Below, piece by piece: positions 3,187-19,642 of a stretch of DNA of 21,522 nt (position 1 is the stretch's first letter; every line of letters starts with the position of its first letter). This stretch comes from Acidobacteriaceae bacterium (GTDB taxonomy: Bacteria > Acidobacteriota > Terriglobia > Terriglobales > Acidobacteriaceae). The notes under the pieces are model-generated. The model saw nothing but the letters and a program-made list of their open reading frames with translations. It was not told where the DNA came from and did no database searches. The DNA is taken from positions 1-21,522 of the forward strand of contig JASIJX010000521.1 of NCBI GenBank assembly GCA_030049955.1, given 5' to 3'. Position numbers and translations under genes: made by a program.

Positions 3187-3944
3187 TGTACCCCTCCAAA
3201 CCTGGAAGCGGCTAGCAGGCGGCGCAGGTTTCCGCCTGCGATGGCGAGCCGTTCCGAATCGGAAATACGCGAGGTTGCCAGCACGCCCAGCGTAGAAGCC
3301 GGCGTGTAGAGAGGCAGCCGCGTTCCAAACAAGATGCGATCGGGGCCGTGGCTCTCGACGAAGGCTTCCAACTGACGATGTGCCAGATACGTCGAGGAGT
3401 CGAAGTGCAGTGAGGGAAAGCGCTCGAGCAGCGGAAAAAGGTAGCGGTCGGCGCGGTAGCCAGTTTCGAGTACCACAAGCGGCAGGCGCGGAAAATTCTC
3501 AAGGAGTGTGACGACGCCGGGCCAGCCGATGTCAGCGCTGGCGACAAGGGTGACCACCGCGTGCTGCTGCAGATAGTCGAACAGATCGCCGGCGCACCAG
3601 CGAGCAAGCGAAAAGTTCAGCTGCTGGGTTCCTGGTGCGACGCGAATGGCGATCGGCTTGCGCGCGGCAAGAAGGTCCAGAAAGGGCTCTCCGGGAAGAA
3701 CGCCCCAGGCTGGCGTCATGCGTGGGCTGATTTCGCGCGCAAGGGCTTCATTGCCGAGTACAGCATCGTACTCCTCGCACTCCCAATGCGAGACGAGCCC
3801 CCGCCGGATAAAAAAGCGATCCATCTCCTGCAGCAGCCCGTTGGCATCCAGAGCAAGTTCGCCGTGGATCCCCGATGAGCCCACGCGCATATTCACGTCG
3901 AACAGGTCCCAGTCCGCGGCCTCGCTGAACAGCAATTCAGACAC
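3183..3944 (-). CDS. Amidohydrolase-fold protein lacking the metal ligands (probable pseudoenzyme)
   Basis: A protein of 253 aa that tracks its 254-aa downstream neighbour in length and layout but lacks its catalytic residues. The opening DxHxH motif reads FDVNMRV (15-21); LVHT reads LVASAD (133-138); LLGHSG reads VVLETGY (157-163); LFGSDLP reads LFGTRLP (205-211). The C-terminal NLRRLL helix typical of the family is kept. I chose the GTG at 3942-3944 because GGAGGG precedes it by 6 bases; an earlier in-frame GTG at 3974 has no such site. It lies 63 bases after the aminotransferase and overlaps the intact amidohydrolase (GTGA). It may be a structural or regulatory partner of that enzyme. The frame is clean, so it is not a pseudogene. 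A changed chemistry cannot be excluded. Confidence 0.8.
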   Translation of the reverse strand: MSELLFSEAADWDLFDVNMRVGSSGIHGELALDANGLLQEMDRFFIRRGLVSHWECEEYDAVLGNEALAREISPRMTPAWGVLPGEPFLDLLAARKPIAIRVAPGTQQLNFSLARWCAGDLFDYLQQHAVVTLVASADIGWPGVVTLLENFPRLPLVVLETGYRADRYLFPLLERFPSLHFDSSTYLAHRQLEAFVESHGPDRILFGTRLPLYTPASTLGVLATSRISDSERLAIAGGNLRRLLAASRFGGVQ

Positions 3945-4007
3945 GGCAACCCTCCGTGAAACTTCAGATTGCACGGCACGTTTCCGGCAACGGTTGCGCC
4001 GCTGTTG

Positions 4008-5246
4008 CTAGCTTACCGTCTGCAGATTGGGGATGGTGGAAGCCAGACGCTGCACCTTCTTCATGGCTTCGATCACATCATCCACATCACGCCGGTCGCC
4101 AAGGAACACTATGTGATTGAGCCAGACGCCGTCACGGCAAACTCGCTCGGCCTCCGGCAGGTTTAATTGCTCGTAGTTCTGGCCGGCACGCCAGCCGCTG
4201 CAGCCAGCGAGCGTTCCGGCTTGCCTGGCGAACAGCGGATTGCGATAAAGCGGCCATGGATAGGAGGGTTTGGCCGGGATGCCTTCCGCGTTAAGCGCGC
4301 GGATGACGGTTTCGCGGTCCAGGCCGCCGAATCCTTCGGCGCGATATCGCAGCGTAAGCAGATAATAAGGGTGCTGCTCAATGCGCGGATCGTCCGCCAC
4401 CAGCGTAAGCCCCGGAACGTCCTTCAGGCCTTCGCGGAAATAGGCTACGTTCTCCGCGCGCAGCCTGGTCTGTGAAGGCAATTTTTTGAGCTGCTCGCAA
4501 AGGATCGCCGATTGAAAGCCAGTAATGCGGTAGTTGGTGCCGAGTGTGTAATGGTCGAACCATCCTCCGTCGCGCTTGCGGCCCTGATTGCAGTAGCTCC
4601 AGCACTTATCAATGATCTCAGCAGAGCGGCTGAGGATCATTCCACCTTCGCCGGCGGTGATGAGCTTGAAGGATTGAAAGCTGAATGTAGCTACGTCGCC
4701 CCACGCACCTACTGGAGTTCCGCACCAGCGTGCGCCATGGGCATGGGCTGCATCTTCGAGTAGTTTGAGGCCGCGGCGCATGGCCAGAGACTGGAATGCG
4801 TCCATCTCGGCGGGGCGTCCGCCGAAGTGCACCACCACGATAGCCCGGGTGCGGGGTGTGATCGCGGCTTCTGCGGCTGCGACGGAAAGGTTAAGCGTTT
4901 CGGGGTCTATGTCGGCGAAGACCGGCGTCGCGTGGCACAAGAGAATGGCGCTGGCAGATGCGATGAAGGTATACGGCGGAACAATCACCTCATCGCCCGG
5001 TCCAATGCCTATCGCGCGCAAAGCCACCTCGATGGCGATCGTTCCGTTAGAACAAGCGACAGCGTGTTCGAGACCATGGTAGCGAGCAAAGCTCGTCTCG
5101 AGTTCCTTCACGCTTTCGTGATAGCCGCCCCACTGGCGGCTGTGCAGGACGCGGATCAGAGCAGCTTCTTCTTCGCCGTCATATTGTGGCCATGGGGCAA
5201 ACGGTCGACTCCGGACCGGTTCACCGCCAAGCATCGCAAGTTTCAC
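4008..5246 (-). CDS. DegT/DnrJ/EryC1/StrS family PLP-dependent sugar aminotransferase
   Basis: A fold-type I PLP enzyme; relatives transfer an amino group from Glu or Gln to a keto sugar (often nucleotide-linked) or to a cyclitol ketone. The 412 aa contain ACSNGTIAIEVALRA (PLP phosphate binding), GDEVIVPPYTFIASA, LLEDAAHAHGA with the PLP-nitrogen Asp, and FSFQSFKLITAGEGGM with the Schiff-base Lys. All catalytic features are intact. The start is a GTG at 5244-5246 preceded by AAGGAAG. It is the first gene of a four-gene minus-strand operon and has an operator-like palindrome over its candidate promoter. Most relatives serve cell-envelope sugar biosynthesis; sitting upstream of hydrolases and an FAH-fold enzyme suggests a catabolic role on an amino or keto sugar or cyclitol. 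It could run in the deaminating direction. Confidence 0.9.
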   Translation of the reverse strand: MKLAMLGGEPVRSRPFAPWPQYDGEEEAALIRVLHSRQWGGYHESVKELETSFARYHGLEHAVACSNGTIAIEVALRAIGIGPGDEVIVPPYTFIASASAILLCHATPVFADIDPETLNLSVAAAEAAITPRTRAIVVVHFGGRPAEMDAFQSLAMRRGLKLLEDAAHAHGARWCGTPVGAWGDVATFSFQSFKLITAGEGGMILSRSAEIIDKCWSYCNQGRKRDGGWFDHYTLGTNYRITGFQSAILCEQLKKLPSQTRLRAENVAYFREGLKDVPGLTLVADDPRIEQHPYYLLTLRYRAEGFGGLDRETVIRALNAEGIPAKPSYPWPLYRNPLFARQAGTLAGCSGWRAGQNYEQLNLPEAERVCRDGVWLNHIVFLGDRRDVDDVIEAMKKVQRLASTIPNLQTVS

Positions 5247-5349: not shown

Positions 5350-5379
5350 AGTTTACAGGTTGTTCTATAGGTAAAACAA
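5350..5379 (-). promoter_or_regulatory. Candidate promoter of the aminotransferase operon with overlapping operator
   Basis: On the minus strand TTGTTT (5374-5379), 18 bases, then TAAACT (5350-5355) form a plausible sigma-70 promoter about 100 bases upstream of the GTG start. The operator-like palindrome TTGTTCTATAGGTAAAACAA (5360-5379) covers the -35 and most of the spacer; its 8-base arms match at 7 of 8 positions around TAGG. This placement suits a repressor. Confidence 0.6.
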
Positions 5380-5419
5380 GGATTCCATAAGCTAACTCCA
5401 TCGAATTCGCTCTGTCAAG

Positions 5420-6583
5420 TTACTGTGATGGGATGAAGACGATGCACATTGGGGAATCGACTTGATTGTCGTGCCTGTGGAACGACTGCAATCGGCCGCT
5501 GGTTACGTCGCGCTTGAGCCACACGATGGAGTGCGAGTTCTGGTTTGCGACCGCAAGCCAGCGATCGCTGAGATCCAGAGCAAAGTTGCGTGGCGTTTTG
5601 CCTTCGCTCGAGATGAACTGCAGGGGACGGGGTAAGCCGCTATGTGGATCGATGGAATAGACCCCGATTTTGTTCTGGTTTCCGCGGATCGACACGTAAA
5701 GAAACCGGCCGGAGGAATCAAAGGCGATTTCGGAACCGCCAAGCTGAAGCTGTGCACCGTTGGGTAATGCCAATTGCGTGGAAATCTTATCGAGTCTACC
5801 CGTGGCGTAACGAAATTCCGTGAGCGTGGAGTCGAGCTCGTCGATCGAATAGAGGAATCGGCCGTTGGCATTGAAGGCTAGATGGCGAACGCCACCGCCG
5901 GGAGTGACGCCCGTCGATTCACTCCCGGCCGAGAAGCTGAGCGTATGTAAATCGATAGGATGGACAAAGATTCTGTCGATGCCCAGGTCCGCAACGAACG
6001 CATAGCGGTCATCGAGCGAAACGGCGAGTCCGTGAGCGTGCGGGCCCAACTGGCGCTGCAGGTTAATGCTCGATCCATGATGCTGCACGACAGAAGCCGC
6101 TTGGGCGAGGCTGCCGTCGGGAAGGATGGGCAGCAAAGCCACGCTGCCGCTGCCACAGTTTGAAACCAGAAGAAAGCGGGCCTTGTGTGCGAGCGCCAGA
6201 TCGCAAGGACCAATGCCCGCGGACGAAACCCTATTGAGGAGCTTAAGTTGGCCATTATGGGCGTCGATACGGAATGCGCTGACCTTGTTGCCTTCGGCGT
6301 CGTGAATTCCGCCCCCTTCATTCACCCCATAGAGCGTTCGCCAATTGCGGGCGACGACCAGAAATGTTGGATTTGGCGTGGCTGCTTCGAGACCAAGAAA
6401 ATCGGCGACGCCGGTGCCAGGATGAAAGCGATAGGCATAAATGCCGTGCGAGGCGCCACTGGTGCCTGTACCCACATACATGAGCTCGCTGGCAACCGAT
6501 TCATTATCCCGCTGGGCGGGCAGGTGTGCTGCCGCAAGCAACAGCAGCGCCGCGGCGCAAGCGGGGATCGGACGTTTCCTCAT
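5420..6583 (-). CDS. Exported lactonase-family seven-bladed beta-propeller (6-phosphogluconolactonase-like, PF10282 type)
   Basis: A beta-propeller of the YbhE/Pgl lactonase family. The ATG at 6581-6583 gives about 387 aa with a signal peptide (MRKRPIP, a hydrophobic stretch, then HLPAQ), so the mature protein is outside the cytoplasm; an upstream in-frame ATG adds 22 unrelated residues and hides the signal. Blade repeats are visible through the protein. Family signatures include GPHAHGLAVSLDDRYAFVAD followed by LGIDRIFVH, and PRNFALDLSDRWLAVANQNS near the C-terminus. Its location argues against a pentose-phosphate role; secreted relatives may hydrolyse sugar lactones or simply bind ligands. 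It is divergent from the glycosidase-like gene at 6818, sharing an intergenic region with an operator-like site. Confidence 0.85.
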   Translation of the reverse strand: MRKRPIPACAAALLLLAAAHLPAQRDNESVASELMYVGTGTSGASHGIYAYRFHPGTGVADFLGLEAATPNPTFLVVARNWRTLYGVNEGGGIHDAEGNKVSAFRIDAHNGQLKLLNRVSSAGIGPCDLALAHKARFLLVSNCGSGSVALLPILPDGSLAQAASVVQHHGSSINLQRQLGPHAHGLAVSLDDRYAFVADLGIDRIFVHPIDLHTLSFSAGSESTGVTPGGGVRHLAFNANGRFLYSIDELDSTLTEFRYATGRLDKISTQLALPNGAQLQLGGSEIAFDSSGRFLYVSIRGNQNKIGVYSIDPHSGLPRPLQFISSEGKTPRNFALDLSDRWLAVANQNSHSIVWLKRDVTSGRLQSFHRHDNQVDSPMCIVFIPSQ

Positions 6584-6673
6584 CGGCGAGAGATGCCTTG
6601 GCGTGTTGAAACGCAGATTCGAATCAGGCTTCGAAATCAGGCACCCCAAAATTCGGCATGGGATGCATGGATC

Positions 6674-6703
6674 TTGACTTCTGCGAGCCGCTATAACTAT
6701 TAT
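6674..6703 (+). promoter_or_regulatory. Candidate promoter for the glycosidase/epimerase/lyase operon
   Basis: TTGACT (6674-6679) and TATTAT (6698-6703) are separated by 18 bases, with further TATA-like options (TATAAC, TATACT) beside it. Transcription would start around 6710, so the operator palindrome at 6713-6732 would cover the start site. The leader before the ATG at 6818 is then roughly 105 bases. Confidence 0.5.
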
Positions 6704-6727
6704 ACTGCATCGATGTTCTATATGTAG
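6698..6727 (-). promoter_or_regulatory. Candidate promoter for the lactonase gene
   Basis: On the minus strand a perfect TATAAT lies at 6699-6704. Seventeen bases upstream is CTACAT (6722-6727), a weak -35 embedded in the operator palindrome. The -10 is strong; the -35 is poor. Confidence 0.45.
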
Positions 6728-6732
6728 AACGA
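6713..6732. promoter_or_regulatory. Operator-like palindrome in the divergent intergenic region
   Basis: ATGTTCTATATGTAGAACGA contains perfect 6-base arms GTTCTA and TAGAAC around TATG (6715-6730). It matches the sites at 5360-5379 and 19605-19624 and sits where a bound protein could block both divergent promoters. Confidence 0.65.
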
Positions 6733-6802
6733 AGAGGCTTGGCTGATTTGCGTCAGTAAGAGCCTGGTGCCGGAGAGGCGCTGGCGATACTGCGACGAAT
6801 AA

Positions 6803-6810
6803 GGGGGGGG
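6803..6810 (+). repeat. Eight-G homopolymer at the ribosome binding site of the glycosidase-like gene
   Basis: AAGGGGGGGGTG lies 7-8 bases before the ATG at 6818, so the tract is also the likely Shine-Dalgarno sequence. Length changes by slippage would alter translation efficiency, not the reading frame. Confidence 0.6.
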
Positions 6811-6817
6811 TGTCCTA

Positions 6818-8089
6818 ATGGGGGCGCGTAATCGATTTGGTTTGCTGCTGATTTTGTCTTCGTGTGCCTCGCTGACCATAAGCGCGCAGGTTAAGGGACC
6901 CCTGACGGAACTTGGCCATGTGCAGACGGAGCCAGATGGGCGTTTTTTCGTCAACGGCACTCCGGTGTTTCCCATTGGCTTTACGCAGGGACCGCCCACG
7001 GGAGCCGTTGCGGCCGATGGGCTGAATGCGATGCAGGAGTTGCGCAAGGAGGGCTTCGCCTTTCAGCAGTGGCAATGCCCCAAAGGCGCATGGGGGCCAG
7101 CCAAGGAAGCGGAACTCGATGCGTTGGTGAAGGAAGCTGATGCAGAAGGAATGCACGTGGCGGTGTGGATTGAGGAGCTGACGAATTTAGATCCTTCTGA
7201 TACTGCGCACTTGGCCGAACTGAAGCGCGTGGTGGCAAAGTACCGCAACAGTCCCGCGCTGTTCTTGTGGAAGGGCGTGGATGAGCCGCAATGGGGCAGG
7301 GTCCCGGTGGATCGCCTGCGCGCTTTCGACGATACAGTTCACGCGCTTGACCCCAATCATCCGGTGTGGGTGACGCAGGCTCCTCGCGGGACCGCTGCTG
7401 ATCTCGAGCCCTATTCCAAGTACTTCGATGTAGGAGCTATCGACATCTATCCGGTGAGTTATCCCCCGGGAATGCACTCAGGCAACGGCAACCTTGGTCT
7501 GAGCGCAGTTGGCGATTACACGCTGCTCATACGGAAGGCAATGGACTACCAGAAGCCGGCGATGATGACTCTGCAGATCTGCTTTAGCGGAGTAATCAAG
7601 CCGGGGAGGACGCTGCGCTTTCCTACCTTTCCGGAGGAGCGCTACATGTCATATCAGGCGATCATCGATGGAGCCCATGGCTTGCTGTATTTTGGCGGCA
7701 ATTTGAAGCCATGCCTAAACGACAGCGATGCGGGCTATGGCTGGAACTGGACCTTCTATCATAATGTGCTGCGCCCAGTATTGGATGAGTTGCGGCCAGG
7801 CAGTCCGGTCTACCCGGCGCTGGTCGCACCCAAATCCACGCTGACAATTCACTCGGATGGTGGCGATGGATTGGAATACACGGTTCGCGAAGCGGGAGAC
7901 TATATCTATCTTCTTGCAGCCAAGCGTGAAGGCGATACGGTGCAGGTAAACTTCTCGGGTTTGCCCGACGGCATTTCAACGGGCGAGGTATTGTACGAGG
8001 CGCCGAGGCATGTCGCGGTAGCGAACGGCAAGTTCACGGATTGGTTTGGGCCGAACGAAGTACATGTGTACCGGTTCCGGAAGCCTTAG
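6818..8089 (+). CDS. Secreted TIM-barrel glycoside hydrolase-like protein
   Basis: An exported protein of 423 aa resembling the TIM-barrel glycosidase clan (GH2/GH5/GH42-like). The N-terminus has a hydrophobic segment ending SSCASLTISAQ; LSSC at 13-16 fits a lipobox, so it may be a lipoprotein, otherwise signal peptidase I would cut near AQ24. A short beta region (EPDGRFFVNGTPVFPIGF, about 38-55) precedes the barrel, as in GH2-like catalytic domains. LFLWKGVDEPQWG (148-160) resembles the beta-4 strand carrying the acid/base residue, with D155 and E156 as candidates. The last 80 residues look like a beta-sandwich (YLLAAKREGDTVQVNFSGL). Ribosome binding site AAGGGGGGGG. It leads the plus-strand operon. 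I cannot assign a numbered family or substrate; a non-catalytic role is possible. Confidence 0.72.
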   Translation: MGARNRFGLLLILSSCASLTISAQVKGPLTELGHVQTEPDGRFFVNGTPVFPIGFTQGPPTGAVAADGLNAMQELRKEGFAFQQWQCPKGAWGPAKEAELDALVKEADAEGMHVAVWIEELTNLDPSDTAHLAELKRVVAKYRNSPALFLWKGVDEPQWGRVPVDRLRAFDDTVHALDPNHPVWVTQAPRGTAADLEPYSKYFDVGAIDIYPVSYPPGMHSGNGNLGLSAVGDYTLLIRKAMDYQKPAMMTLQICFSGVIKPGRTLRFPTFPEERYMSYQAIIDGAHGLLYFGGNLKPCLNDSDAGYGWNWTFYHNVLRPVLDELRPGSPVYPALVAPKSTLTIHSDGGDGLEYTVREAGDYIYLLAAKREGDTVQVNFSGLPDGISTGEVLYEAPRHVAVANGKFTDWFGPNEVHVYRFRKP

Positions 8090-8251
8090 GCGGATGGGTA
8101 GCTCGCGGACGGCATCATCGGCTTTTTCTGCGGAACATACCAGCCATCCGCATGCGATCCCCCCGACCGGCATCCCGGGACCGGCCAAAGGCGGTTACAT
8201 TTTGCTGCCACGTCCGCTGCCACAGTTGGTGATTGAAAGCGGGAAATCTGG

Positions 8252-9616
8252 ATGAAGCGCCGGCAGTTTCTTTTTCGTGCAGCAGCGGCGGGGGCCAGCC
8301 CCATGGCAGTGGCCGGCATTGCGCTGCCTTCCCATGCTGCTGTGCCGAACTCTGCGCCTGCACGCCTGGCACATGCCGACGCGGAGCGGCTCATGGGCTA
8401 TAGTCTGCCGGAACTGCGGGAGCTGTATGATCGCGACTTGTTCGTCGACTGGCTGCCCTTTATGCAGCGGCATGTGATCGATGCGGAGTACGGCGGCTTC
8501 CTGTGCAACACGGACTTTGACGGAGTCCATGCAAATCTAAATAAGGATGCGCTCTTCGAGGGCCGCGGCATCTGGGTCTACTCTACGCTGTACATGCGCT
8601 TCGGCAGGGAGGAGCGCTACCTGGACGTTGCCCGGCGAAGCGTGGAGCTGTTGCGCAAGTCCCTGCCGCCGGACGATGCGCTCTGGTGCACGCAACTCGA
8701 GCGCGACGGAACGCCGGCTAGTCCTGCTGGCAGCGTGATCGCGACGGACGTGGGCATCGCCGAAGGTTTCGCCGCCTTTGCACAGGCCACCGGTCAGCAG
8801 GAATATCTGGACCGCGCCAAACAACTCCTGTGCAAGTGCATTCGTGCATATGAGCAGCCGGACTACTATCCGGCCGTGGGCCACGGCTACTTTGGAGCAG
8901 CAGCGCCGCCACTTGCCGGGGCTCGGATCCTGGGCAGTTGGATGATTATGCTGCGCACGACGGCACAGATCCTGGCGATGGATGCTGATGCGGAGTTTGA
9001 TCGGTTTGCCCGACGCTGCGCGGGGGCCGTCATTGACCATCACTTCAATTCGAGTTTCGAGTTGTACAACGAATTGCTGAACCGGGATTTTTCCCGTCCG
9101 GGCGACCCCTATGGGCAGCTCTGCAATCTTGGCAATATATTTGAGATGACCTGGATGTTGCTCGATGAAGCCACACGGCAGCGCGACACTGCCATGTTTC
9201 AACTGTGTGCCCAGCGGCTGAGACGGCACGCGCTCGTCGGCTGGGATCCGGTTTATGACGGAGTCTTTCATAATCTCCTCAGTGTCGACGAGAATCGCTA
9301 TGCGCTGGACAAGTTGTTATGGGCGCAAAGTGAGTTGCTGGTCGACATGCTCTATATATATGACCGCACCTCAGCGCCCTGGGCGGCTGAGCTCTTCGGC
9401 CAAACTTACAAATATGTACGTGAGCGATTCCCGCTGAAGGCTCGCGGATCGCCAGTCTGGATGTACGCAACTGGCCGCAAGGCAACGTTCAAAGAGTTCG
9501 CCGCATTGCCCAAGCGCATCGAAAACTATCATCACCCGCGCCACCTGATTCATAACCTGCTGCGGCTGGAAGCGATGTGCAGTCGCCAGGAGCCACAACC
9601 GCGTGTGGGGCAGTGA
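8252..9616 (+). CDS. Tat-exported N-acylglucosamine 2-epimerase (AGE) family protein
   Basis: An (alpha/alpha)6-barrel protein of 454 aa in the AGE/cellobiose-epimerase group, which epimerises or isomerises unphosphorylated sugars at C2. The N-terminus MKRRQFLFRAAAAGASPMA has the twin-arginine pattern RRxFL and an Ala-rich h-region ending PSHA, so a folded protein is probably exported. Family signatures are YGGFLCNTDFDG (80-91), KDALFEGRGIWVYSTLYMRF (98-117) and the C-terminal HHPRHLIHNLLRLE. It starts 162 bases after the glycosidase-like gene and ends 36 bases before the lyase gene, so it belongs to the same operon. Most AGE enzymes are cytoplasmic, so Tat export is unusual and suggests action on released periplasmic sugars. 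A glycosidase-like activity in the same fold is an alternative. Confidence 0.82.
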   Translation: MKRRQFLFRAAAAGASPMAVAGIALPSHAAVPNSAPARLAHADAERLMGYSLPELRELYDRDLFVDWLPFMQRHVIDAEYGGFLCNTDFDGVHANLNKDALFEGRGIWVYSTLYMRFGREERYLDVARRSVELLRKSLPPDDALWCTQLERDGTPASPAGSVIATDVGIAEGFAAFAQATGQQEYLDRAKQLLCKCIRAYEQPDYYPAVGHGYFGAAAPPLAGARILGSWMIMLRTTAQILAMDADAEFDRFARRCAGAVIDHHFNSSFELYNELLNRDFSRPGDPYGQLCNLGNIFEMTWMLLDEATRQRDTAMFQLCAQRLRRHALVGWDPVYDGVFHNLLSVDENRYALDKLLWAQSELLVDMLYIYDRTSAPWAAELFGQTYKYVRERFPLKARGSPVWMYATGRKATFKEFAALPKRIENYHHPRHLIHNLLRLEAMCSRQEPQPRVGQ

Positions 9617-9652
9617 CGCACGAAGCTGAATTTTCAGGAAAGGGAAAATAAA

Positions 9653-12600
9653 TTGCCGTTTCGCCTTATATGGATCCGATCTTGGCCGGGATTAAGGAGT
9701 CAAATCCGATCGATGGGTACCTTACTCCGATTCGAATCCGGATTGTTCCCAAGCCGATCTCCAGATCGCAGCTCGGCGAGTCACGGAGGTTCAAGTAAAC
9801 GTATCATCCAAGCCATAGCAGGCCTGTTTGCTGGACTGTTGCTTGTGCCCGCAGCGGCTACCGCCGCGGGGCCAGCTGGCACGGCTCTCACCGCCTGGAC
9901 GTACCGCGCCGATTGGACTGGCGGATTTTCCGGATGGATGAGTTTCCCGCTGGCGCAGGACGTAGGCTACGATCCGAGCCTTTACGTCGAGAATCAAGGC
10001 GATGTGGCTGTGCTGCGGCATAACTTTTTATCCCACGGTGAGCCGGAGCCGTGGTTCGGAATGATTCGTCCGCTGGAATTTTCTGCCGATGCTCACAGCA
10101 ACATTACATTGCGCTACCGGCTGAAGCTCGAATGCCCGTTGACACACGCAGAACTATTGCTGGCCGCTGCGGATGGACGCCGTTACACGGCGGAGCTGCC
10201 GTCCGAGGCTGGCGAGCATACGATGACGATCAGCGGGGCGGCGTTGCACCTGAGTGGAAATACTCCGGTGCAGGCCATCGTGGTGCGCGGAAGTTTAGAG
10301 CATCCGCCGGTAAATTCGCAATCGGAGTGGATTCTCGAAGAGGTTGTGGTGCACGGGGAACGCGCGGCGCAGGTTTCGCTGGTGGCTCCTCAATTGGATG
10401 CAGCCGTCGACGGTCCATGGGTCGATGGCTCATGGGTTGCGCGCAAGCCTGTGTTTGCGGGTGAAGATCTGAAGATTGTCCGCGCCTCCGCGAATGCGCC
10501 GGGTCACATTTCTCTATATAACGGCGAAGGCGCGTTGGTGAGCGAGCGTACGATTGCTGCCGGCGATGAGTCTCTATCGTTGCCGGTTGATGCAAAGGCG
10601 CCTCCGGGGCTGTGGAAGGCAGAAATACGACAGGGAACCGCGTGGACGACCTTTCGGTTTCTTGTACTGGGTAAAATTCCGTCGCACCCGCGCCTGCTGC
10701 TTGCGCCATCGCGCATCGAGGAGCTGAGTCACGATCCTCGTTATGCCTCGTTGCGAACGCAGATTCACGAACGAGCGCAGGCCCTGGCGACAAAGATCAC
10801 CTACAACAACTACGCGGGCACCAACATCGAGCTGATGCCATCCGGTCTGGGCATCGAGCCCGCTACGGCTGGGCAGTTGGGTCCATATATAGAGCTGGTC
10901 GAAAACTATGCCAACGCGGTGGCATATAACGCTCTCGATTATCGGCTGAGCGGCGACAAGAGTGCTCTCTCCGCTTCCCGCAAGGCTCTGGCCACCATGG
11001 CAGCGTGGGAAACCTGGGTGCCACCGCGGTTTCAGTCGCATGGCCTCTACACTTATTACGAAGTGGGTGTGATCACGCAGAGAGCGGCCTTGGGATACGA
11101 CCTCATCGCGGATGAGCTAACAACGCAGGAGAAAGAAAACGCCGCTGATGCCTTTTGGAAGCAGGCGATTAACCCTGCGATCGAAGAGTACTTCAGCTAC
11201 AACCGCGACCCTATTGCAGCCAGTAACTGGATGGCCAATTCCGTGGGTGGCGCTATTGCGGCGATTGTTGCAACTGCCGGAGACACGCCGGCGTGGAGCG
11301 AGCGTGAGGCGCCGGCTCTCGCCAAGCTTCAATTCGCTTACGAAGAGTTGCTGAAAGGCCTGTTCCCGGGCGATGGCAGCGAAGCGGAGCCATATGGCTA
11401 TGAGAATTTTGCAATGCAAGGAATTTCGTGGGCGATCAGTTCGCTTCACGCTCTCGAAATTCATCCATCTGGCGCTAAGCGTATGATGCAGGGCTTTTGG
11501 TGGCCGTACTATGTAACCGCCGGACCGGCCATGCAACTCGACACCGGCGACTTCAATGGCCATCTCACCGGGTTACCCGGCTTCGCGTGGGGAGCTGAAT
11601 TTTCCGGGATTCCCGAGTTGCGCGCATTCTATGATGCAGGCACGCATCTTGATCTTTCTCAAAGCGCCGGCGCGGAACAGAACGGGCACTTGCTCGAAGA
11701 GGCACTTGGCGCGATTGATCTGGTGTGCTGTTCGGGACCTGCTCCAGCGTTTGCTCTTCCTCCGCCTTCCCGCGTATTTCCCCTGCGTGGCAGCGCCGCT
11801 TTGCGCAGCGGATGGGATCACGATGCGACGGTAATTTCGCTGCGGGCTGGACCGTGGTTTAATCATGAACATCATGACGAAGGCAGCTTTCAGGTCTCGG
11901 CCTTCGGGAATGAGCTAATCAGTGAGGCCGGCTACGCCAGCTACTATACAGACCCTCATTATTCGGACTACTTCACGCAGGCCGCAGGTCACAACACGCT
12001 GCTGATTGATGGCAATCCCTTTAGCCAGATGGCTTTTGCACCCCGCTATTGGGCTGCGTTCGAGCATCCTCACTTCACCGCGCAGATGCTCGCGACGGAC
12101 TTCGACTTTCTCGCGGCGGACCTCACATCCGCCTATGATGGCAAGCTGGAAAGCTATGAACGGCAATTCTTCTTTCTGAAGCCGGACATTCTGATCGTGC
12201 ACGACGAAGTGCGTGCCCCTGAAAAGCATGTTTTTACATGGCTGCTGCACGCGCCGCCAGATTCCAAGCTGACGCATGAGGGGGCGATCGCATCCATCCA
12301 GACCGAGGCTGCACATGCCGATCTGGTGGCAGCAAGCAGCAATGCAGCGTGGAGTTTGGCAACGACACCCATTCAGGTAACGCTCTTCACCAATCTGGAT
12401 CGTCAGCACGTTGAACCACGAAATGAATTCACGCTGACCTCACCTTCCACGACAAAAACGGAATTTCTCGTCGGCATGAAGTTCGCTGCTGGTCCGGCGG
12501 GCAGTACGCCGGACTTGCAGTCCTGGTCGGAAAAGGCCGGAGAGGGTTTTCGTGCTGCGGCCTCAGCCAGCGAGGAGGCGAGCATCGTTTTTCGGACCGG

Positions 12601-12943
12601 TGCAGGGGACCTTATGCTCGACGCTCTCGCCACCGATGGTTCTGTACTGGCGCAAAAAGGAAAGAACGCCAGCGAATGGATGGCGGTGGGCGCGCGATCG
12701 GTGAAGGAAGATGGCAGAACGATCTTCCGTTTCGCGACGCCGACCGATATAGCATGGGAGCGTGCGAACGACGCCACGAAACTTACCATCTGGAGCAGCG
12801 GCAGTGGCGCACTGAATCTCTTTTGTTCAGAAGCGCCCACCTCCGTGATAGTCGATGGGCAACCGTCACAGGTTTCTTATCAGGACAAGATGTTGAAGGT
12901 GATGCTTCTTACCCCAGGAGAACACCATGTCCTCATTCGGTGA
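9653..12943 (+). CDS. Large secreted heparinase II/III-family polysaccharide lyase-like protein
   Basis: A multi-domain protein of up to 1096 aa. From the TTG at 9653: an odd N-terminal stretch (1-48); a signal segment from KRIIQAIAG to PAAATA (49-71); a beta-sandwich, possibly carbohydrate-binding (about 75-235); an Ig/FN3-like part (about 240-345); an alpha/alpha toroid (about 350-650) with SNWMANSVGG (524-533) and YENFAMQGISW (from 583); and the heparinase II/III C-terminal beta domain with NHEHHDEGSF (737-746) and AGHNTLLIDG (from 778), typical of PL12/15/17/21 lyases. Such enzymes cleave uronic-acid glycans by beta-elimination, usually in the periplasm. Start choice is uncertain: AGGAAAGGG precedes the TTG by 8 bases, an ATG lies at 9713, and a strong GGAGGT at 9784-9789 has no start codon after it. 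The family is firm; the substrate is unknown. Confidence 0.85.
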   Translation: MPFRLIWIRSWPGLRSQIRSMGTLLRFESGLFPSRSPDRSSASHGGSSKRIIQAIAGLFAGLLLVPAAATAAGPAGTALTAWTYRADWTGGFSGWMSFPLAQDVGYDPSLYVENQGDVAVLRHNFLSHGEPEPWFGMIRPLEFSADAHSNITLRYRLKLECPLTHAELLLAAADGRRYTAELPSEAGEHTMTISGAALHLSGNTPVQAIVVRGSLEHPPVNSQSEWILEEVVVHGERAAQVSLVAPQLDAAVDGPWVDGSWVARKPVFAGEDLKIVRASANAPGHISLYNGEGALVSERTIAAGDESLSLPVDAKAPPGLWKAEIRQGTAWTTFRFLVLGKIPSHPRLLLAPSRIEELSHDPRYASLRTQIHERAQALATKITYNNYAGTNIELMPSGLGIEPATAGQLGPYIELVENYANAVAYNALDYRLSGDKSALSASRKALATMAAWETWVPPRFQSHGLYTYYEVGVITQRAALGYDLIADELTTQEKENAADAFWKQAINPAIEEYFSYNRDPIAASNWMANSVGGAIAAIVATAGDTPAWSEREAPALAKLQFAYEELLKGLFPGDGSEAEPYGYENFAMQGISWAISSLHALEIHPSGAKRMMQGFWWPYYVTAGPAMQLDTGDFNGHLTGLPGFAWGAEFSGIPELRAFYDAGTHLDLSQSAGAEQNGHLLEEALGAIDLVCCSGPAPAFALPPPSRVFPLRGSAALRSGWDHDATVISLRAGPWFNHEHHDEGSFQVSAFGNELISEAGYASYYTDPHYSDYFTQAAGHNTLLIDGNPFSQMAFAPRYWAAFEHPHFTAQMLATDFDFLAADLTSAYDGKLESYERQFFFLKPDILIVHDEVRAPEKHVFTWLLHAPPDSKLTHEGAIASIQTEAAHADLVAASSNAAWSLATTPIQVTLFTNLDRQHVEPRNEFTLTSPSTTKTEFLVGMKFAAGPAGSTPDLQSWSEKAGEGFRAAASASEEASIVFRTGAGDLMLDALATDGSVLAQKGKNASEWMAVGARSVKEDGRTIFRFATPTDIAWERANDATKLTIWSSGSGALNLFCSEAPTSVIVDGQPSQVSYQDKMLKVMLLTPGEHHVLIR
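9729..9744. repeat. Two interlocked perfect 10-bp palindromes near the 5' end of the lyase gene
   Basis: GATTCGAATC (9729-9738) and AATCCGGATT (9735-9744) are each perfect inverted repeats and overlap by four bases. The surrounding 9668-9780 is also rich in CCGATC words. This may be chance within a poorly conserved N-terminal extension or a regulatory site preceding a downstream start. Confidence 0.45.
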
Positions 12944-13088
12944 CCGGCAGGATGTGCGCCGGCGGCTGCGTGATGAGTTCCTGCAAGTACCCAGTCAACG
13001 TGACAGATTCAACGTGAGCCTGTTGCCGTAAGAATGGGAAACAGTCCATAAAGAGGCTTGGAAAGAGATATGGAGGATTGAGGAAGGT

Positions 13089-14144
13089 ATGGATCAGCTT
13101 CGCATAGGAATTATCGGGCTTGGGAAAATGGCGCGTCTCTGCCTACGGGTATATTCGGAGAGCCACCTTACTCGAGTCACAGCCGTAAGTGCGCGGCGGC
13201 AGGAAGTCGTAGACGAAGTCTCGGCGCAATTTGGCGTGCCGGGCTACTCTGACTACCGTAAGATGCTAGAGCGGGATGACATTGATGCGGTTGTGGTCGC
13301 GACGCCGGATAATTATCACTTTGAATTTGCAAAGGCTGTGCTGGAATCCGGCCGGCATTTGCTTGTTGAAAAGCCCTTCACCACAAGCGTAGCCGAAGCT
13401 GACACGCTGTTGAGGCTGGCCCACAAAATGGGCCGCAAGATCCAGGTAACTTTCAATCATCGTTGGCTATCGGCCTATCAACAGGCGCATGACACAATCG
13501 CGTCGGGTGGAATTGGCAAGGCCATGACCGGTTACGCCCGTAAGAGCGATACGATTATTGTCTCCACGAAGAATATTCGCTGGGCAGGCGAGACGACCTG
13601 CGCGTGGCTGCTGTCTTCTCACGACATTGACCTGGTGCGATGGTTTATGGGCAGCGAGCCTGTCGAGGCCCGCGCCTGGGGCCGTAAGGAGGTGCTGGTT
13701 GCGCGAGGTATTCCGACCTACGATGTCATCCAGGCGCAGGTGCTGTTCGCGAACGGAGCGTTCGTTACGTTTGAATCGGGATGGATTTATCCCAACACCT
13801 TCCCCACCACCGTCGACTCATATATTCAGTTGATTGGATCGGCTGGCCATGTGTTGCTGGACCGAAAGCGAGAGTCGCTTGAGATCAGCACGGAAGCGGC
13901 GTTCACGTATCCCAAGGGCTTTCTTACACAGGAAATTTTTGGACGGATACGTGGAGCTTTTCCTTTTTGTCTAGAGGACTTTGCGCGCTCCATTCTCGAG
14001 GATACGACGCCGAAGGTGACGGGCTTCGATGGACGCCAGGTGACAGCGGCACTGGAAGCCATTCACCAATCGCTGGAGCGCGGCGGCGAGAATGTTAGAG
14101 TCGCACAGCCGGACGAAGACATCCTCAGCTGGTTGAAGGCGTAG
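13089..14144 (+). CDS. Gfo/Idh/MocA-family NAD(P)-dependent sugar oxidoreductase
   Basis: A two-domain dehydrogenase of 351 aa; relatives oxidise sugars, cyclitols or their derivatives. The N-terminal Rossmann fold opens RIGIIGLGKMAR with the GxGxxA fingerprint, followed by DAVVVATPDNYHFEFAKAVL and the signature VEKPFTTS with the catalytic-region Lys. The second domain has FNHRWLSAY and SSHDIDLVRWFMG, the conserved active-site HDxxLxRW type. No signal peptide, so cytoplasmic. The ATG follows GAGGAAGG. It lies 145 bases after the lyase gene on the same strand and is probably the last gene of that operon; the symporter gene converges on it 34 bases away. Oxidation of the imported sugar is the likely role; the substrate cannot be read from sequence. 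Confidence 0.88.
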   Translation: MDQLRIGIIGLGKMARLCLRVYSESHLTRVTAVSARRQEVVDEVSAQFGVPGYSDYRKMLERDDIDAVVVATPDNYHFEFAKAVLESGRHLLVEKPFTTSVAEADTLLRLAHKMGRKIQVTFNHRWLSAYQQAHDTIASGGIGKAMTGYARKSDTIIVSTKNIRWAGETTCAWLLSSHDIDLVRWFMGSEPVEARAWGRKEVLVARGIPTYDVIQAQVLFANGAFVTFESGWIYPNTFPTTVDSYIQLIGSAGHVLLDRKRESLEISTEAAFTYPKGFLTQEIFGRIRGAFPFCLEDFARSILEDTTPKVTGFDGRQVTAALEAIHQSLERGGENVRVAQPDEDILSWLKA

Positions 14145-14178
14145 CCGGTTCCGCCCGCAAATTCTCAGCGTCAGCCGC

Positions 14179-15903
14179 TCAAACTCTTACCACTATGCGG
14201 CGGTCGGTGTGCAACGTACGCATGCGATAACCGGCTAGTGCGATCAGCGCCGCACCCACGGCGAGGTCGGTAAGGCGTGCGGTAAGCGATGATGCAATGA
14301 CTCCTGCGATACCCAGCAGCACGCCGACGGCGATTGTTGAGAGAGCAATCACTCTTACCTGTTCACGATGCTGATCCATTGCCGGCGTCGTGGATGCAGG
14401 CCGTTCCGCGTGTTCAAAAATCTGGCTGTATTTCTTCTGCTGACTCTCGGCGGTTCCGAAGATCATAGTTCCGATGCACATGCCGCCAATGGTGACAGCA
14501 GTGTTGATAAGCACGGATGCTCCATCGAAATTGGCTGCAAGCCAAGACCAGTGCCCATGCGGCAAATACCATGCGCGCAGGCCCAGTAGCGACAGGCCGA
14601 CCGCCAGGCCCAGAAAATAGCCGGTAGTGACTCCCTGCCAGTTGAGACGCCGGGAGATTAGGGCGCCCATCAGGGGAACAAAGGATGGTGCAATGAAAGC
14701 GCTGGCTATCAACACCATTAGATGGAACAGCGCCTGATCGCCTCCTTGCGAAATATACAGGCCGATGCCCAGCGAGATTCCGCCAATCAGGAGCGTGATA
14801 AGCCGGCCGACGTTTAGCAGCTTACGCGGCGAGGCATCAGGGTTGAAGATGCGCTGGTAGACGTCCGTGGTGAGCACGCTGGCGATGGAGCTGAGGTCGG
14901 CGCTGACTGTTGCCATCGTGGCGGAAAGCATCGCGGCAATCACAATGCCCACCATACCGGCGGGAAGTAGCTTGATAACAAGCAGCACGTAAACGTCGGC
15001 GGTGCGATGCTGCGCGATGAGGTCGGGAAGGAACGTCCGCGCGAGAATGGCCGGTAAGATCATCAGCGGCCCGCCGATGAGATACAGGAATGCGGAAAAG
15101 TAAGAAGCCTTGGCTGCCTGGCGTTCATCCTTGACTGAATAGAACTTCTGGGCGAGCGACCACGAGCCGTTCAGGGTGATCGTCAGCATTACACCCCAGC
15201 CGAGAAGGTAAATCCAGTTATACGGGCCGTTGGTCGCGTGGAAGAAGCCCGTGGGCAGCACGCGAACCGCATGGCGCAGGCCGCCGGCTCGCCAAATCGC
15301 AAGAGGAACCAGCAGCGTAAGGGCCATCATCTTCATCAGGAACTGGATGTAGTCGGTGACAATGAGCGCCCATAGGCCTCCCAGAAACGTGTACACAACC
15401 GTGATGACGCCGCAGGTGATGACCGCCCAGGTGGTTGGTATGCCCAGACCGACCGCAATGAAGATGCTGGTGGCGAACAGCTTGAGGCCGTCTTCGGCTA
15501 CTTTCATGGGAATGCCGGCCCAGGCAAGAAGCTGGCGGACAAAAGGGTTGAAGCGGCGTTCGAGAAACTCGACCGGCGTCACCACGTGGGCCCTGCGCCA
15601 TTGACGGGCGAAGATCAGGCCGCCGACAATGCCGCTCGGCACGGCCATCCAGATGAGGCTTACCGCCGTCCAGCCATAGGTGTAGCCGATTTGAGAGTAG
15701 GAGACAAACGCTAAGGCGCTGGCGCTCGACATGTAGTGTGAGACCGCTGCGAGCCACCAGGGAATCTGATGTCCTCCGGCGAAGTAATCTTCGGCGGAGC
15801 GCATGCGCTTGCGGTAGTAAAGACCAACCAGGAGAACCAGCGCCAGGTATCCCCCGATTACCACCAAATCAGAAGCCGTGAGCGGAAGCTGATTCGCGTT
15901 CAT
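14179..15903 (-). CDS. Sodium:solute symporter (SSS family) sugar transporter
   Basis: A polytopic inner-membrane transporter of 574 aa with the LeuT-type fold, importing a sugar or sugar acid with Na+. About 13-14 hydrophobic segments are visible. Family landmarks are SAEDYFAGGHQIPWWLAAVS near residue 36, VTPVEFLERRF, the segment GLWALIVTDYIQFLMKM typical of SGLT-like members, and AAMLSATMATVSADLSS in the region that carries Na2-site residues. The N-terminus MNANQLPLTASDLVVIGG fits the first helix outside the conserved core. It lies downstream of the TonB receptor on the same strand after a 199-base gap containing a hairpin, so the pair probably forms the uptake route across both membranes. 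The cluster context suggests the breakdown product of the secreted lyase as substrate. Confidence 0.9.
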   Translation of the reverse strand: MNANQLPLTASDLVVIGGYLALVLLVGLYYRKRMRSAEDYFAGGHQIPWWLAAVSHYMSSASALAFVSYSQIGYTYGWTAVSLIWMAVPSGIVGGLIFARQWRRAHVVTPVEFLERRFNPFVRQLLAWAGIPMKVAEDGLKLFATSIFIAVGLGIPTTWAVITCGVITVVYTFLGGLWALIVTDYIQFLMKMMALTLLVPLAIWRAGGLRHAVRVLPTGFFHATNGPYNWIYLLGWGVMLTITLNGSWSLAQKFYSVKDERQAAKASYFSAFLYLIGGPLMILPAILARTFLPDLIAQHRTADVYVLLVIKLLPAGMVGIVIAAMLSATMATVSADLSSIASVLTTDVYQRIFNPDASPRKLLNVGRLITLLIGGISLGIGLYISQGGDQALFHLMVLIASAFIAPSFVPLMGALISRRLNWQGVTTGYFLGLAVGLSLLGLRAWYLPHGHWSWLAANFDGASVLINTAVTIGGMCIGTMIFGTAESQQKKYSQIFEHAERPASTTPAMDQHREQVRVIALSTIAVGVLLGIAGVIASSLTARLTDLAVGAALIALAGYRMRTLHTDRRIVVRV

Positions 15904-16064
15904 CTCTTCTATGCCATCATGCCAGCTACGGCCTCGGCGCGCCCTGTTCGTCCGTCGCCGAGCGCTCGTACTCTGGCCTTAACGCTATCGCGAACTGGCC
16001 TTAGGCACAACCCGCGGCGCTCGACCGCTGGGGTGATCTGGCAGAAACTGTCGAGGCGGATGAA

Positions 16065-16097
16065 GCCGGGTTGCGGAGGCTGGGCCGCAAACCCGGC
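16065..16097 (-). terminator. GC-rich hairpin after the TonB receptor gene
   Basis: GCCGGGTTGCGG (16065-16076) pairs with CCGCAAACCCGGC (16085-16097) with a single-base bulge around an 8-base loop, starting 5 bases beyond the receptor stop codon. No U-tract follows on the minus strand, so it is more likely an mRNA-stabilising or partial-termination hairpin that lowers symporter expression than a full intrinsic terminator. The rest of 15904-16102 holds no gene I can support. Confidence 0.5.
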
Positions 16098-16102
16098 CGT
16101 GT

Positions 16103-19100
16103 TTAGAAGGTGTAACGCAGCGAACCCTGGATCACGCGGCTGCCTTCGCCAGTAGTCACGTCTCCGAAATTCGCCACGGCGGTTCCGCCATACTGTGTGG
16201 TGCCTGTGGTGGCAACAACTGGAGCCGCCACCCCACCGATTGACGTGCCACCGCCATCCCAATTTGTATGATTGAACGCGTCGAGAAAGGTAACCCTGAA
16301 GATCAGGCCCTGATTCTCCCGAATGGCAAACGTCTTCAGGACGCTCATGTCGTAGTTCCAATATCCAGGTCCGAAGTATCCGTTGCGAGGCGAGTCACCC
16401 CATTGTCCCGGAGCCGGCGTCACAAACGCAGCCGGGTTGAGCCACGTACCCGTGATCGAGTGACTGTGGTTGCGGATGTACGGATTCACACCGGGCACCG
16501 TATTTGCGCGACCTGCGATCCAGCCCGGATACGTAGACGGAGCGGTAAATGTGACAGAGAACGCGGGACCTGTTTCGTACGTCGTGATGCCGGAGAAGGT
16601 CCAGTCGCCCAGGGCTTCGCTCAGCACCCCATGGCTGAGGTACTTGCGGTCGTGTCCAAAGGGTAGATCATACGCGTAGTTCGCAACGAAAGTGTGCCGC
16701 GCGAGGTATGGGCAATTGCCGTAATCGAGACGCGGTTCGGTCACGATCTGCGGTCCCGCTCCGGTGGGAGGAGCGATGTCACGGCAGTTGGTCCATTCAT
16801 ACTGGCCCTGCGCCATAAAGCCCTGGGAGAATTGGTGAAGAGCCTCGAGCTGCAGTTGATCGGTATTGGAGAAATTCTCGTTATTGGTGGTGTCGATGAC
16901 GCCCCACGGCTGATATGGACGCTCGTTTTGCAATGGTTGCGTGGGTTGCTGCACTACCGGGACGTTGGTGTTGTACAGAGTCACAGGCAGGTCGACTGTG
17001 CGATTGCCTACATAGCTGGCGCGCGCCTTCCACTGATCCCGGAATTGGTGCTCGAGTGTCACGTTGAACTGCTGAATACGGGCGTTGTCAAAGTTTCTGT
17101 TCATTGCGTAGACAGTGGGATGAGCAGACGGCGCTGCTGCTGTACCGGATGGAAACGGCGCATTGAACGTAATGTCCGGCAAGTAGGTCGAGGTTGGTTT
17201 GGAGGGCTTGCCGGTGTTGTACGTGACGCTGCCACCCCACGGTGGGTTCAGAATATTGTCATTGAAGCCGATGTAACCGGCATTGAAGTTGTAGTAGATG
17301 CCGTAACCGCCGCGCAGCACCGTATCGGTGCTACCCAGGATTCGCCAGGCAAATCCGAGCCGGGGACCAAAATTGTCCCGCTCAGGAGAGTAGAACGTCT
17401 CGGGTAGCCCTAACGCTCCAGTTGTGGTAAAGGCATAGCTCGGCAACGAAGTTGCGGGGGAATTGGCAGGCAATGTCGGCGTTGTAGAGTTCTCCGGCAG
17501 CACTAATGCATTGTCAGTGAAACTGAAGTAGCTACCGAGATTGCCCCTGCTGTCCCAAGGCGACTGATAGACGTAGCGCAAACCGTAGTTGAAAGTCAGG
17601 CTCGGCAATACCTGCCACACATCCTGCCCGTACAACTCCCAGTCGCGGCTATAGGTGTCCTGGGTCGGGGTCGCTTTGCCGGTGGTGGCGCTGACTGCAT
17701 CGCCCAGCATGAAATCGGCGACGGTATTGCCAACGGATGTGGGTTGTCCCGGCCAACCTCCGTTTCCGGTCCATGTACCGTTGAAAGTGTAGGTTCCCAG
17801 AGGACCATAGCCGCCGCTTGGGACATAGATCTTGAAGCCTGTTTCATCGATGCCGGCCTGCAGAGTGTGGCGGCCGATTACGTGCGTAAAGTCATCGGTA
17901 ATTTCAATGTCATATTCCCGCGTGTAGTTGTTCAGCCCGATATCTCCAATGGCCGTGTAGCCTGTGGTGGTCATCGTGGGCAGGCCGCGGTTGTTGCTTG
18001 GGGTCAGTTGCGAGAGGAGCGAATAGGGGTCGAAGGAAGCATTCTGCCCGCTGCGGATGCTCTCGTGATCGAACCAGGCGCCGCGCAGCGAGTTGACCGT
18101 TCTCGGACCGAACGTATGTGTCTCCGTTCCGCTCAGGGTGTATGTCTTGTAGCCGTAATTCTGGCCGTTGCCAAAGCTCGCCGGCGTGCCGAGCGGATCG
18201 AACCAGGGGAAGCCCACCGAATGCGAGTAGACACCGAATAGAGAGTCACGACTGGACAGATGGTCGTCGAGGCGAAGGTCCCATTTCCCAACGTCGAAGA
18301 TCTGGCTCAATGAGGTCGTGTAATTGTATTGCTCGGCTACGCCATCCGGCGCCTTGGTGCCCTGCGGCAGGCCCAGCGAACTGGTATTGGTCGGATTCGG
18401 TAGAAAGGCAAGCAGCGTCTGGGCCTGCGACGTGATCATCGTGGAAGGAATTATGTTGTACGCGAAAGGCTGGCCGGTTTGCGGATTGTAGAGTTGTACG
18501 CCGCCGGTCGCATTGCAGGCGCCGCTCCCGTTATAGGTCGCGCACAAGGTGCCAAAGTTACCTTGCTTCTCGGCTGCAGTCGGCAGATTGTCCTGTACCG
18601 AAACGGGGACGGCCTGGCGAAGCCCGTCATAATCGAAAAAGAAGAACGCTTTGTTGTGCAAAATGGGACCGCCGATGTCCCCGCCGAACTCATTGCGATG
18701 AAAAGGCGGGCGCAGGACGCCGTTCGCATTGTTGACAAATGTATTGGCATTCAACGACGTGTTCTCAAGGTATTCGTAGGCCTCGCCGTGAAAGCGATTT
18801 GTGCCGGCCTTGGTCACCATCTGCACGTTGACGATACGGCTGTAGCGTGCATCCATGCCGATGCCGCCAATCTGGACTTCCTGCAGCGAGCTCAATGAGG
18901 GTAGATTGACACCGCCCAAACCAAACGAGTAGGAACCGCCGCCGTTGCCGGGGTCGTTGACGCTCACGCCATTCAGGGTGAAATTATCGGCGCCCCAGTG
19001 TGTGCTGCCGGCGATCTGCGGGGCCGAATTGAATGTAGCGCGTCCCACCCCGGCCGCCAGGATCAGAAAGCTGTCGATATCCTGCACGGTTGTCGGCAAG

Positions 19101-19558
19101 GTCTTCAGTTGCGTGGTCGTAATTGGGGTCGCGATGACGCCATTTTCGGTGTCGATGATCGGCGCCTCAGAGGACACCTGCACGCTCTCTGTGGCGGCGC
19201 CGACCTGGAGTTTCATGTCGCTGCGCAGCGTCTGCTGGGCAAGCAGTTGAAGCCCGGTCGAAGTCTCCTGCCGAAAACCATTCTTCTCCGCCGTCACCGA
19301 ATAAAAGCCCGGGTCGAGTTCAGGCACCGTATAGTTGCCTGAACCGTCGGTCACAGTGTGCACCTTCACGCCGGTCTGCTGGTTGGTAATCGTAACGTTC
19401 ACATCCGGAACGGCGGCTCCGGTGGTGTCGCTTACCCTGCCCGTAATGGAGCTGCGTACCTCCTGCCCGAATGCCATTCCCAAGGTGGCTAGCAGCATTA
19501 ATAGAAGAGAGAGACGACAGATCTGGGACAGCCTCACGCAAAGAAGCGAACAACACAT
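16103..19558 (-). CDS. Oar-like TonB-dependent outer-membrane receptor with carboxypeptidase-regulatory-like domain
   Basis: An outer-membrane transporter of 1151 aa, in the size range usual for acidobacterial glycan receptors. A hydrophobic signal (LSLLLMLLATLGMAFGQ) ends near residue 32. Next is a carboxypeptidase-regulatory/Cna-B-like domain (about 35-120: SITGRVSDTTGAAVPDVNVT ... GNYTVPELDPGFYSV), a plug domain with DNFTLNGVSVNDPG and EVQIGGIGMDARYSR, then a long beta barrel ending GSLRYTF with a terminal aromatic residue. The ATG at 19556-19558 follows GGAGG by 7 bases, so the start is well supported. It probably imports oligosaccharides for the adjacent lyase and symporter. It has a good promoter and an operator-like palindrome in its leader, matching those of the catabolic genes. 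Confidence 0.93.
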   Translation of the reverse strand: MCCSLLCVRLSQICRLSLLLMLLATLGMAFGQEVRSSITGRVSDTTGAAVPDVNVTITNQQTGVKVHTVTDGSGNYTVPELDPGFYSVTAEKNGFRQETSTGLQLLAQQTLRSDMKLQVGAATESVQVSSEAPIIDTENGVIATPITTTQLKTLPTTVQDIDSFLILAAGVGRATFNSAPQIAGSTHWGADNFTLNGVSVNDPGNGGGSYSFGLGGVNLPSLSSLQEVQIGGIGMDARYSRIVNVQMVTKAGTNRFHGEAYEYLENTSLNANTFVNNANGVLRPPFHRNEFGGDIGGPILHNKAFFFFDYDGLRQAVPVSVQDNLPTAAEKQGNFGTLCATYNGSGACNATGGVQLYNPQTGQPFAYNIIPSTMITSQAQTLLAFLPNPTNTSSLGLPQGTKAPDGVAEQYNYTTSLSQIFDVGKWDLRLDDHLSSRDSLFGVYSHSVGFPWFDPLGTPASFGNGQNYGYKTYTLSGTETHTFGPRTVNSLRGAWFDHESIRSGQNASFDPYSLLSQLTPSNNRGLPTMTTTGYTAIGDIGLNNYTREYDIEITDDFTHVIGRHTLQAGIDETGFKIYVPSGGYGPLGTYTFNGTWTGNGGWPGQPTSVGNTVADFMLGDAVSATTGKATPTQDTYSRDWELYGQDVWQVLPSLTFNYGLRYVYQSPWDSRGNLGSYFSFTDNALVLPENSTTPTLPANSPATSLPSYAFTTTGALGLPETFYSPERDNFGPRLGFAWRILGSTDTVLRGGYGIYYNFNAGYIGFNDNILNPPWGGSVTYNTGKPSKPTSTYLPDITFNAPFPSGTAAAPSAHPTVYAMNRNFDNARIQQFNVTLEHQFRDQWKARASYVGNRTVDLPVTLYNTNVPVVQQPTQPLQNERPYQPWGVIDTTNNENFSNTDQLQLEALHQFSQGFMAQGQYEWTNCRDIAPPTGAGPQIVTEPRLDYGNCPYLARHTFVANYAYDLPFGHDRKYLSHGVLSEALGDWTFSGITTYETGPAFSVTFTAPSTYPGWIAGRANTVPGVNPYIRNHSHSITGTWLNPAAFVTPAPGQWGDSPRNGYFGPGYWNYDMSVLKTFAIRENQGLIFRVTFLDAFNHTNWDGGGTSIGGVAAPVVATTGTTQYGGTAVANFGDVTTGEGSRVIQGSLRYTF

Positions 19559-19604
19559 ATTTGAACCTCCGATTGGGAAATGTCTTTGGCACTTCCGGAG
19601 AGCT

Positions 19605-19642
19605 GTGTTCTATTAGTAAAACACACAGTCAGTAAGCTGACT
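19605..19642. promoter_or_regulatory. Operator-like palindrome and adjacent inverted repeat in the TonB receptor leader
   Basis: GTGTTCTATTAGTAAAACAC (19605-19624) aligns with the operators at 5360-5379 and 6713-6732; including one flanking base on each side its 9-base arms match at 8 of 9 positions. It lies downstream of the predicted start site, as a roadblock operator. Next to it, AGTCAG-TAAG-CTGACT (19627-19642) is a separate perfect 6-base inverted repeat at the predicted transcript start, which could be a 5' hairpin or a second site. Confidence 0.6.

Follow-up and report, generated by a model that had tools for sequence, protein, structure and literature searches.

Three short palindromes of the same build lie far apart in a 21,522-nucleotide stretch of DNA from an Acidobacteriaceae bacterium (contig JASIJX010000521.1), here called the window, and they raise the question whether one regulator governs the genes next to them and, if so, where it is encoded. 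A sequence-only reading of the window had listed three 20-mers as a shared operator, and each was found exactly where it had been placed (Table 1). Their 16-bp cores follow the form GTTCTA-N4-TARAAC and read GTTCTATAGGTAAAAC (start 5362), GTTCTATATGTAGAAC (6715) and GTTCTATTAGTAAAAC (19607). Scanning the window with GTTYTANNNNTARAAC and allowing up to two mismatches returned exactly three matches, all of them with 0 mismatches. As that reading had also maintained, none lies within a gene: called genes flank each of the three sites and never contain it. Operator 1 precedes a string of genes for the DegT-family aminotransferase, two amidohydrolases, the FAA hydrolase and the SdhB-like protein. 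Operator 2 precedes the glycosidase-like, AGE, heparinase-like and Gfo/Idh genes, with the lactonase-like gene divergent, and operator 3 precedes the gene for the TonB-type receptor, which is followed by that of the SSF symporter. The absence of a regulator, likewise remarked on before, holds for the 12 called genes of the window, none of which was recognised as one.

Table 1. Positions of genes, operators and a promoter-like match in the window (G071 is a relative introduced in the text).
Feature	Positions	Strand	Remark
SdhB-like iron-sulfur protein	677..1393	-	probably the last DegT-operon gene in the window; same order in G071
FAA hydrolase family protein	1538..2425	-	
Amidohydrolase (Amidohydro_2)	2422..3186	-	
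Amidohydrolase (Amidohydro_2)	3183..3974	-	
DegT-family aminotransferase	4008..5246	-	probably the leading gene of the operon that follows operator 1
Operator 1	5360..5379, core 5362-5377	.	site centre 123.5 bp from the called DegT start
Lactonase-like beta-propeller	5420..6649	-	divergent from the glycosidase-like gene
Promoter-like TTGACT-18-TATTAT	6674..6703	+	just before operator 2; chance-level scanner match
Operator 2	6713..6732, core 6715-6730	.	between the divergent lactonase and glycosidase-like genes
Glycosidase-like protein	6818..8089	+	no Pfam family; profiles of clan-A type glycosidases match weakly
AGE-type (GlcNAc 2-epimerase family) protein	8252..9616	+	
Heparinase II/III-like lyase	9653..12943	+	
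Gfo/Idh/MocA oxidoreductase	13089..14144	+	
Sodium:solute symporter (SSF)	14179..15903	-	downstream of the TonB-type gene
TonB-type outer-membrane receptor	16103..19558	-	CarboxypepD_reg and outer-membrane barrel
Operator 3	19605..19624, core 19607-19622	.	56.5 bp upstream of the TonB-type start as called

The predicted structure of the glycosidase-like protein has a mean pLDDT of 77.5. At 19625-19644 a stem-loop with AGTCAG/CTGACT arms abuts operator 3, situated between it and the TonB promoter region and carrying a terminator-like flag on the minus strand. Further on, from 19850 to 21522, a coding-like stretch with 10 stops in its translation looks like one or more decayed genes.

We considered whether the sites could be chance likenesses of AT-rich promoter stretches. 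When the window was shuffled and two mismatches were allowed, a mean of 0.78 matches was obtained and 5 of 100 shuffles gave at least three, which speaks for chance although it is a weak test alone. Against it stands the exactness of all three window sites, since the exact pattern occurs only 34 times in 200 family genomes, spread over 28 of them, and is outnumbered there by the reversed control pattern. By arithmetic from this rate, exact matches in the order of 0.001 would be expected per 21.5 kb versus the 3 observed. Because the pattern had been derived from the window sites themselves, the decisive test is conservation in genomes not used for the pattern.

Relatives were collected with the heparinase-like protein as query against a genome-contig collection, which gave 19 loci. 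One further relative, G071, was reached through the pattern scan of the 200 genomes, and another, G343, lies outside these 200 and came from protein searches. All distances refer to start codons as called, except for the TonB-type gene of G071, for which an inner ATG was chosen. G002 (locus L002; a MAG named as Acidobacteriaceae) holds only two exact sites in its whole assembly, one centred 47.5 bp upstream of a TonB-type gene and the other between the SSF and DegT genes; the symporter gene has here been relocated beside DegT and the operator is still adjacent to it. In G343 the TonB site is kept with one mismatch at the same distance of 47.5 bp as in G002, and a two-mismatch site lies upstream of the glycosidase-like gene. 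Synteny of G071 with the window extends from SdhB to TonB, and its DegT protein is 80% identical. A single exact site lies between its DegT and glycosidase-like genes, a one-mismatch site before a gene of the IclR family (iclR), and two-mismatch sites before its TonB-type and heparinase-like genes. A fourth relative, G001, has a site with one base off the pattern upstream of its glycosidase-like gene. Operator 3 has counterparts in G002, G343 and G071, and operator 2, whose centre is 95.5 bp upstream of the glycosidase-like start, has an orthologous site in G071 and G001. No lactonase-like orthologue was found between the DegT and glycosidase-like genes of G071; the interval there (L040:9915-10085) contains one site, and its counterpart in the window (5246-6818) contains the lactonase-like gene with one site on each side.

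Comparing the four TonB promoters pairwise, the 16-bp site was 81–94% identical and the flanks 28–54%. Retention of the sites at orthologous promoters in pattern-independent genomes, with flanks that are not retained, already contradicts a chance origin, which we regard as having next to no probability. Non-conservation at orthologues had been named by the sequence-only reading as a result that would speak against it, as had hits at background frequency; in the relatives, sites recur at the TonB-type, DegT and glycosidase-like genes, background frequency was not what the scans returned, and the exact pattern is rare.

A matrix built from the window's three sites alone gave the same picture. 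Over 217 kb on the contigs of three relatives and at a threshold of 14 bits it produced 10 hits, 8 of which lie at promoters of the regulon; 15 shuffles of each contig gave means of 0, 0 and 0.2. The remaining two are both from G002: one is intragenic, and the other falls within another TonB-type ORF, 235 bp in from its called 5' end. Two further sites, at DegT/SSF in G343 (11.6 bits) and upstream of the glycosidase-like gene in G002 (10.9 bits), score too weakly to count alone. As background, a set including loci that had been picked for their own matches (top score 20.4 bits) was rejected as biased and loci L003–L019 were used instead; four of their five hits of at least 14 bits fall into two loci of one genome, G003 (L003 and L010).

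Looser scans are less telling. With two mismatches, genome-wide counts were near those of the reversed control (G002, 27 vs 23; G001, 8 vs 24; G003, 33 vs 47) and are therefore uninformative; one such match, G001:C47:5923, falls within a called gene. When one mismatch was allowed, G343 had 4 matches, 3 of them outside the locus, and G071 had 11, of which 9 were outside; we count this against a regulon, and both totals are below the reversed-pattern control (23 and 21, respectively). A further match is present in G002 at C163:14655, and exact matches also occur in G008, G147, G163 and G036. Across the phylum, 88 of the 396 genomes scanned had matches, and among the matches listed only G004 had two sites near each other. 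In G471 there were 19 operator-like matches, and the five places listed read GTTCTGCTTCGCAGAAC or its complement; these copies represent a repeat or another regulon.

The regulator itself had been predicted to lie outside the window, and this is supported by the relatives: in G002, G343 and G071 the locus has a linked gene of the IclR family. In the first two it ends the DegT string, after the FAA hydrolase gene. In G071 it is on the opposite strand, beyond fumarase-like and SdhA-like genes, and its own operator is centred 16.5 bp upstream of its start codon. The linked protein of G002 shares 75% identity with its G343 counterpart and 58% with that of G071, and HTH_IclR and IclR_C exceeded the Pfam cut-offs in all five IclR proteins scanned (from G002, G071, G343, L005 and L009). 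At an E-value of 1e-60, 3 of the 398 family genomes, among them the one that supplied the query, contained the linked protein; four contained the glycosidase-like protein, namely the same three and G001. As both genes belong to one locus, this co-distribution is not independent proof. For the organism of the window we infer that iclR lies a few kb to the left of base 1. If the gene order of G071 holds, arithmetic predicts it 3.3–4.1 kb from there. A tblastn search of the window with the SdhA protein of G071 gave no match, since the window starts within what in G071 is the gap of about 0.7 kb between SdhB and SdhA.

These results suggest that the window palindromes are very probably real switches, and we consider it about 85% probable, judging from comparative sequence evidence, that they are the operators of one locally encoded IclR factor governing the uptake and breakdown of a sugar polymer. 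The shared operator and local regulon postulated at the outset are supported by the sites at orthologous promoters together with the linked iclR gene, and of the two dimer types guessed at then, IclR and GntR, the former was the better half of the guess. Uptake under this control would comprise the TonB-type receptor and the SSF symporter, and breakdown the glycosidase-like, AGE, heparinase-like, Gfo/Idh and DegT proteins, the amidohydrolases and the FAA hydrolase. We infer that the linked IclR protein binds these sites. The sites might instead belong to another regulator (of the GntR, MarR or LacI type, or an IclR paralogue encoded elsewhere), with the linked iclR serving another purpose. Several IclR paralogues do exist in these genomes (five each in G002 and G071), and G001 keeps a site with only a weak IclR fragment match in a fragmented assembly, where no close IclR was found; we count both against our assignment. 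Yet the site precedes iclR itself in G071, and in G002 and G343 the DegT operon ends with iclR, so that another binding protein appears improbable. The likeness to published IclR motifs (PMC8222616, PMC11778176) and recognition residues that vary with operator length, both described below, argue in the same direction.

Among the more distant loci L003–L019, an IclR-family gene (28–32% identical) is located just upstream of DegT in 10 of 17, and in 8 of these 10 a divergent TonB-type gene is found on its other side; several of the remaining loci end at a contig edge. The intergenic stretches of the distant loci carry 17-bp palindromes, GTTCTRYNNNRYAGAAC, which are often paired. Eight measured pairs are 93–111 bp apart, six of them 108–111 bp. 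For the TonB-side pairs in L005, L008, L009, L015, L016 and L019 the spacing may reflect promoter layout or looping. On the contig of L018 a second 17-bp pair (18313 and 18415, 102 bp apart) precedes another TonB-type ORF. When spacers of 1–9 bases were tried in 24 sources, perfect arms were obtained only at 4 (five sites) and 5 bases (fifteen sites). A pattern covering both lengths gave 20 matches in 11 of 16 of these genomes: by reading, 15 are at the cluster, an adjoining second TonB-type gene or a sister IclR gene, and 5 elsewhere. A tree of 38 IclR proteins groups the three 16-bp regulators in one clade (100/98). The regulator of G003, a genome with diverged 16-bp sites near TonB-type and DegT genes, joins this clade (97/94). 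The eleven regulators of the 17-bp group form another clade (92/98), with further IclR proteins between the two and weak support for the deep forks.

Both spacings have precedents. For group 1 of the IclR family, Suvorova and Gelfand (2021, PMC8222616) give the motifs NGT-12-ACN for even and GTT-11-AAC for odd lengths, both classes reportedly common in sugar and sugar-acid regulons. The window palindromes share with these motifs the GT..C arms and the AT-rich centre; the 16-bp core corresponds to the even spacing GT-N12-AC and the distant 17-bp form to the odd spacing GTT-N11-AAC. The fit to the group 1 type is partial, as most bases agree but the fifth arm base departs, being T here (A in the other arm) and R or C in the published consensus. 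According to the same survey, even-length sites favour Pro1, Ala/Pro2, Ser30 and Ala/Asn33 (weakly Gly33) in the HTH and disfavour Gln1 and Arg33 (HTH numbering per its Table 5). All three 16-bp-linked regulators have Pro1, Ala2, Ser30 and Ala33, as published for even-length sites, and the G003 regulator has Pro1-Ala2-Ser30-Gly33. Of the 11 regulators of the 17-bp group, all carry Arg33 and none Pro1. Since Ser30 (7/11) and Ala2 (5/11) are also present in this group, only positions 1 and 33 discriminate, and their frequency among 23 other IclR proteins (Pro1 in 9, Arg33 in 18) means that they support and do not prove the assignment. From this we tentatively propose, at somewhat less than even odds, that two IclR lineages run the same polymer cluster through arms of the type GTTCTR...YAGAAC, one at 16-bp and one at 17-bp spacing, with HTH residues 1 and 33 to match. 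If true, regulator and operator geometry would have been replaced or re-tuned in nature with the pathway unchanged. The operators of two lengths, each with its own IclR lineage and matching HTH differences, can serve as a natural test for the way in which IclR proteins gauge the spacing of half-sites.

The sign of control was judged from the promoters. A sigma-70 promoter had been claimed for each site. What stands is the TTGACT-18-TATTAT sequence before operator 2, at about chance frequency (the scanner found 2 matches where 1.2 were expected); near operator 3 the scanner gave no match, and the TTGACA-17-TTAGCT sequence before operator 1 on the minus strand was seen by eye only. The IclR family has activator members, PcaU and PobR, and we count these towards activation, by which IclR would bind the same sites and recruit polymerase when a ligand is present. 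Several distant loci fit this, the probable -35 box of iclR being preceded (by eye) by one of the two 17-bp sites. The sites of the window group instead follow the best promoter hexamers (by eye), an arrangement that suits blocking even if the promoter assignments are weak. For this reason we favour repression and rate activation as unlikely. Most likely, repression is relieved by an intermediate of the pathway: an IclR dimer would occupy each palindrome, at the transcription start or slightly downstream of it, and repress, and the intermediate, perhaps a sugar acid, would release it. Regarding the substrate, the heparinase II-like lyase and the glycosidase-like protein, together with genes beside the locus for GH20 (G002 and G343) and GH39 (G002), give a hint of a polymer that contains uronates or aminosugars.

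In this way a polymer-degrading locus of the Acidobacteriota can be given a regulator family, a motif and a set of genes. The main text of the motif survey PMC8222616 does not cover this phylum: the word acidobacteria does not appear in it, and the taxonomic table has no such row. Literature searches on IclR in Acidobacteria gave no title naming this regulon among the matches listed. In NCBIfam, the linked IclR proteins matched models of the KdgR, BhcR and PcaR/PcaU/PobR types best. Membership of KdgR, BhcR or PcaR/PcaU was rejected, as all three linked proteins scanned were far below every cut-off; the G002 protein, for instance, scored 183.1 of 350 bits for BhcR, 170.2 of 275 for KdgR and 165.8 of 284.75 for PcaR/PcaU. 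A likeness in the operator is found with the IclR-family protein XynR of E. coli, compared here by its box. The box quoted in PMC11778176, TGTTCAacattatAGAACA, has the same GTTC...AGAAC arms, and its length is 17 bp (GTTC-N9-GAAC) versus 16 in the window. Unlike the window, the XynR regulon is not a polymer-uptake locus with a TonB-type receptor; as a small regulon of the sugar-acid type under an IclR protein (PMC11778176) it is similar in kind.
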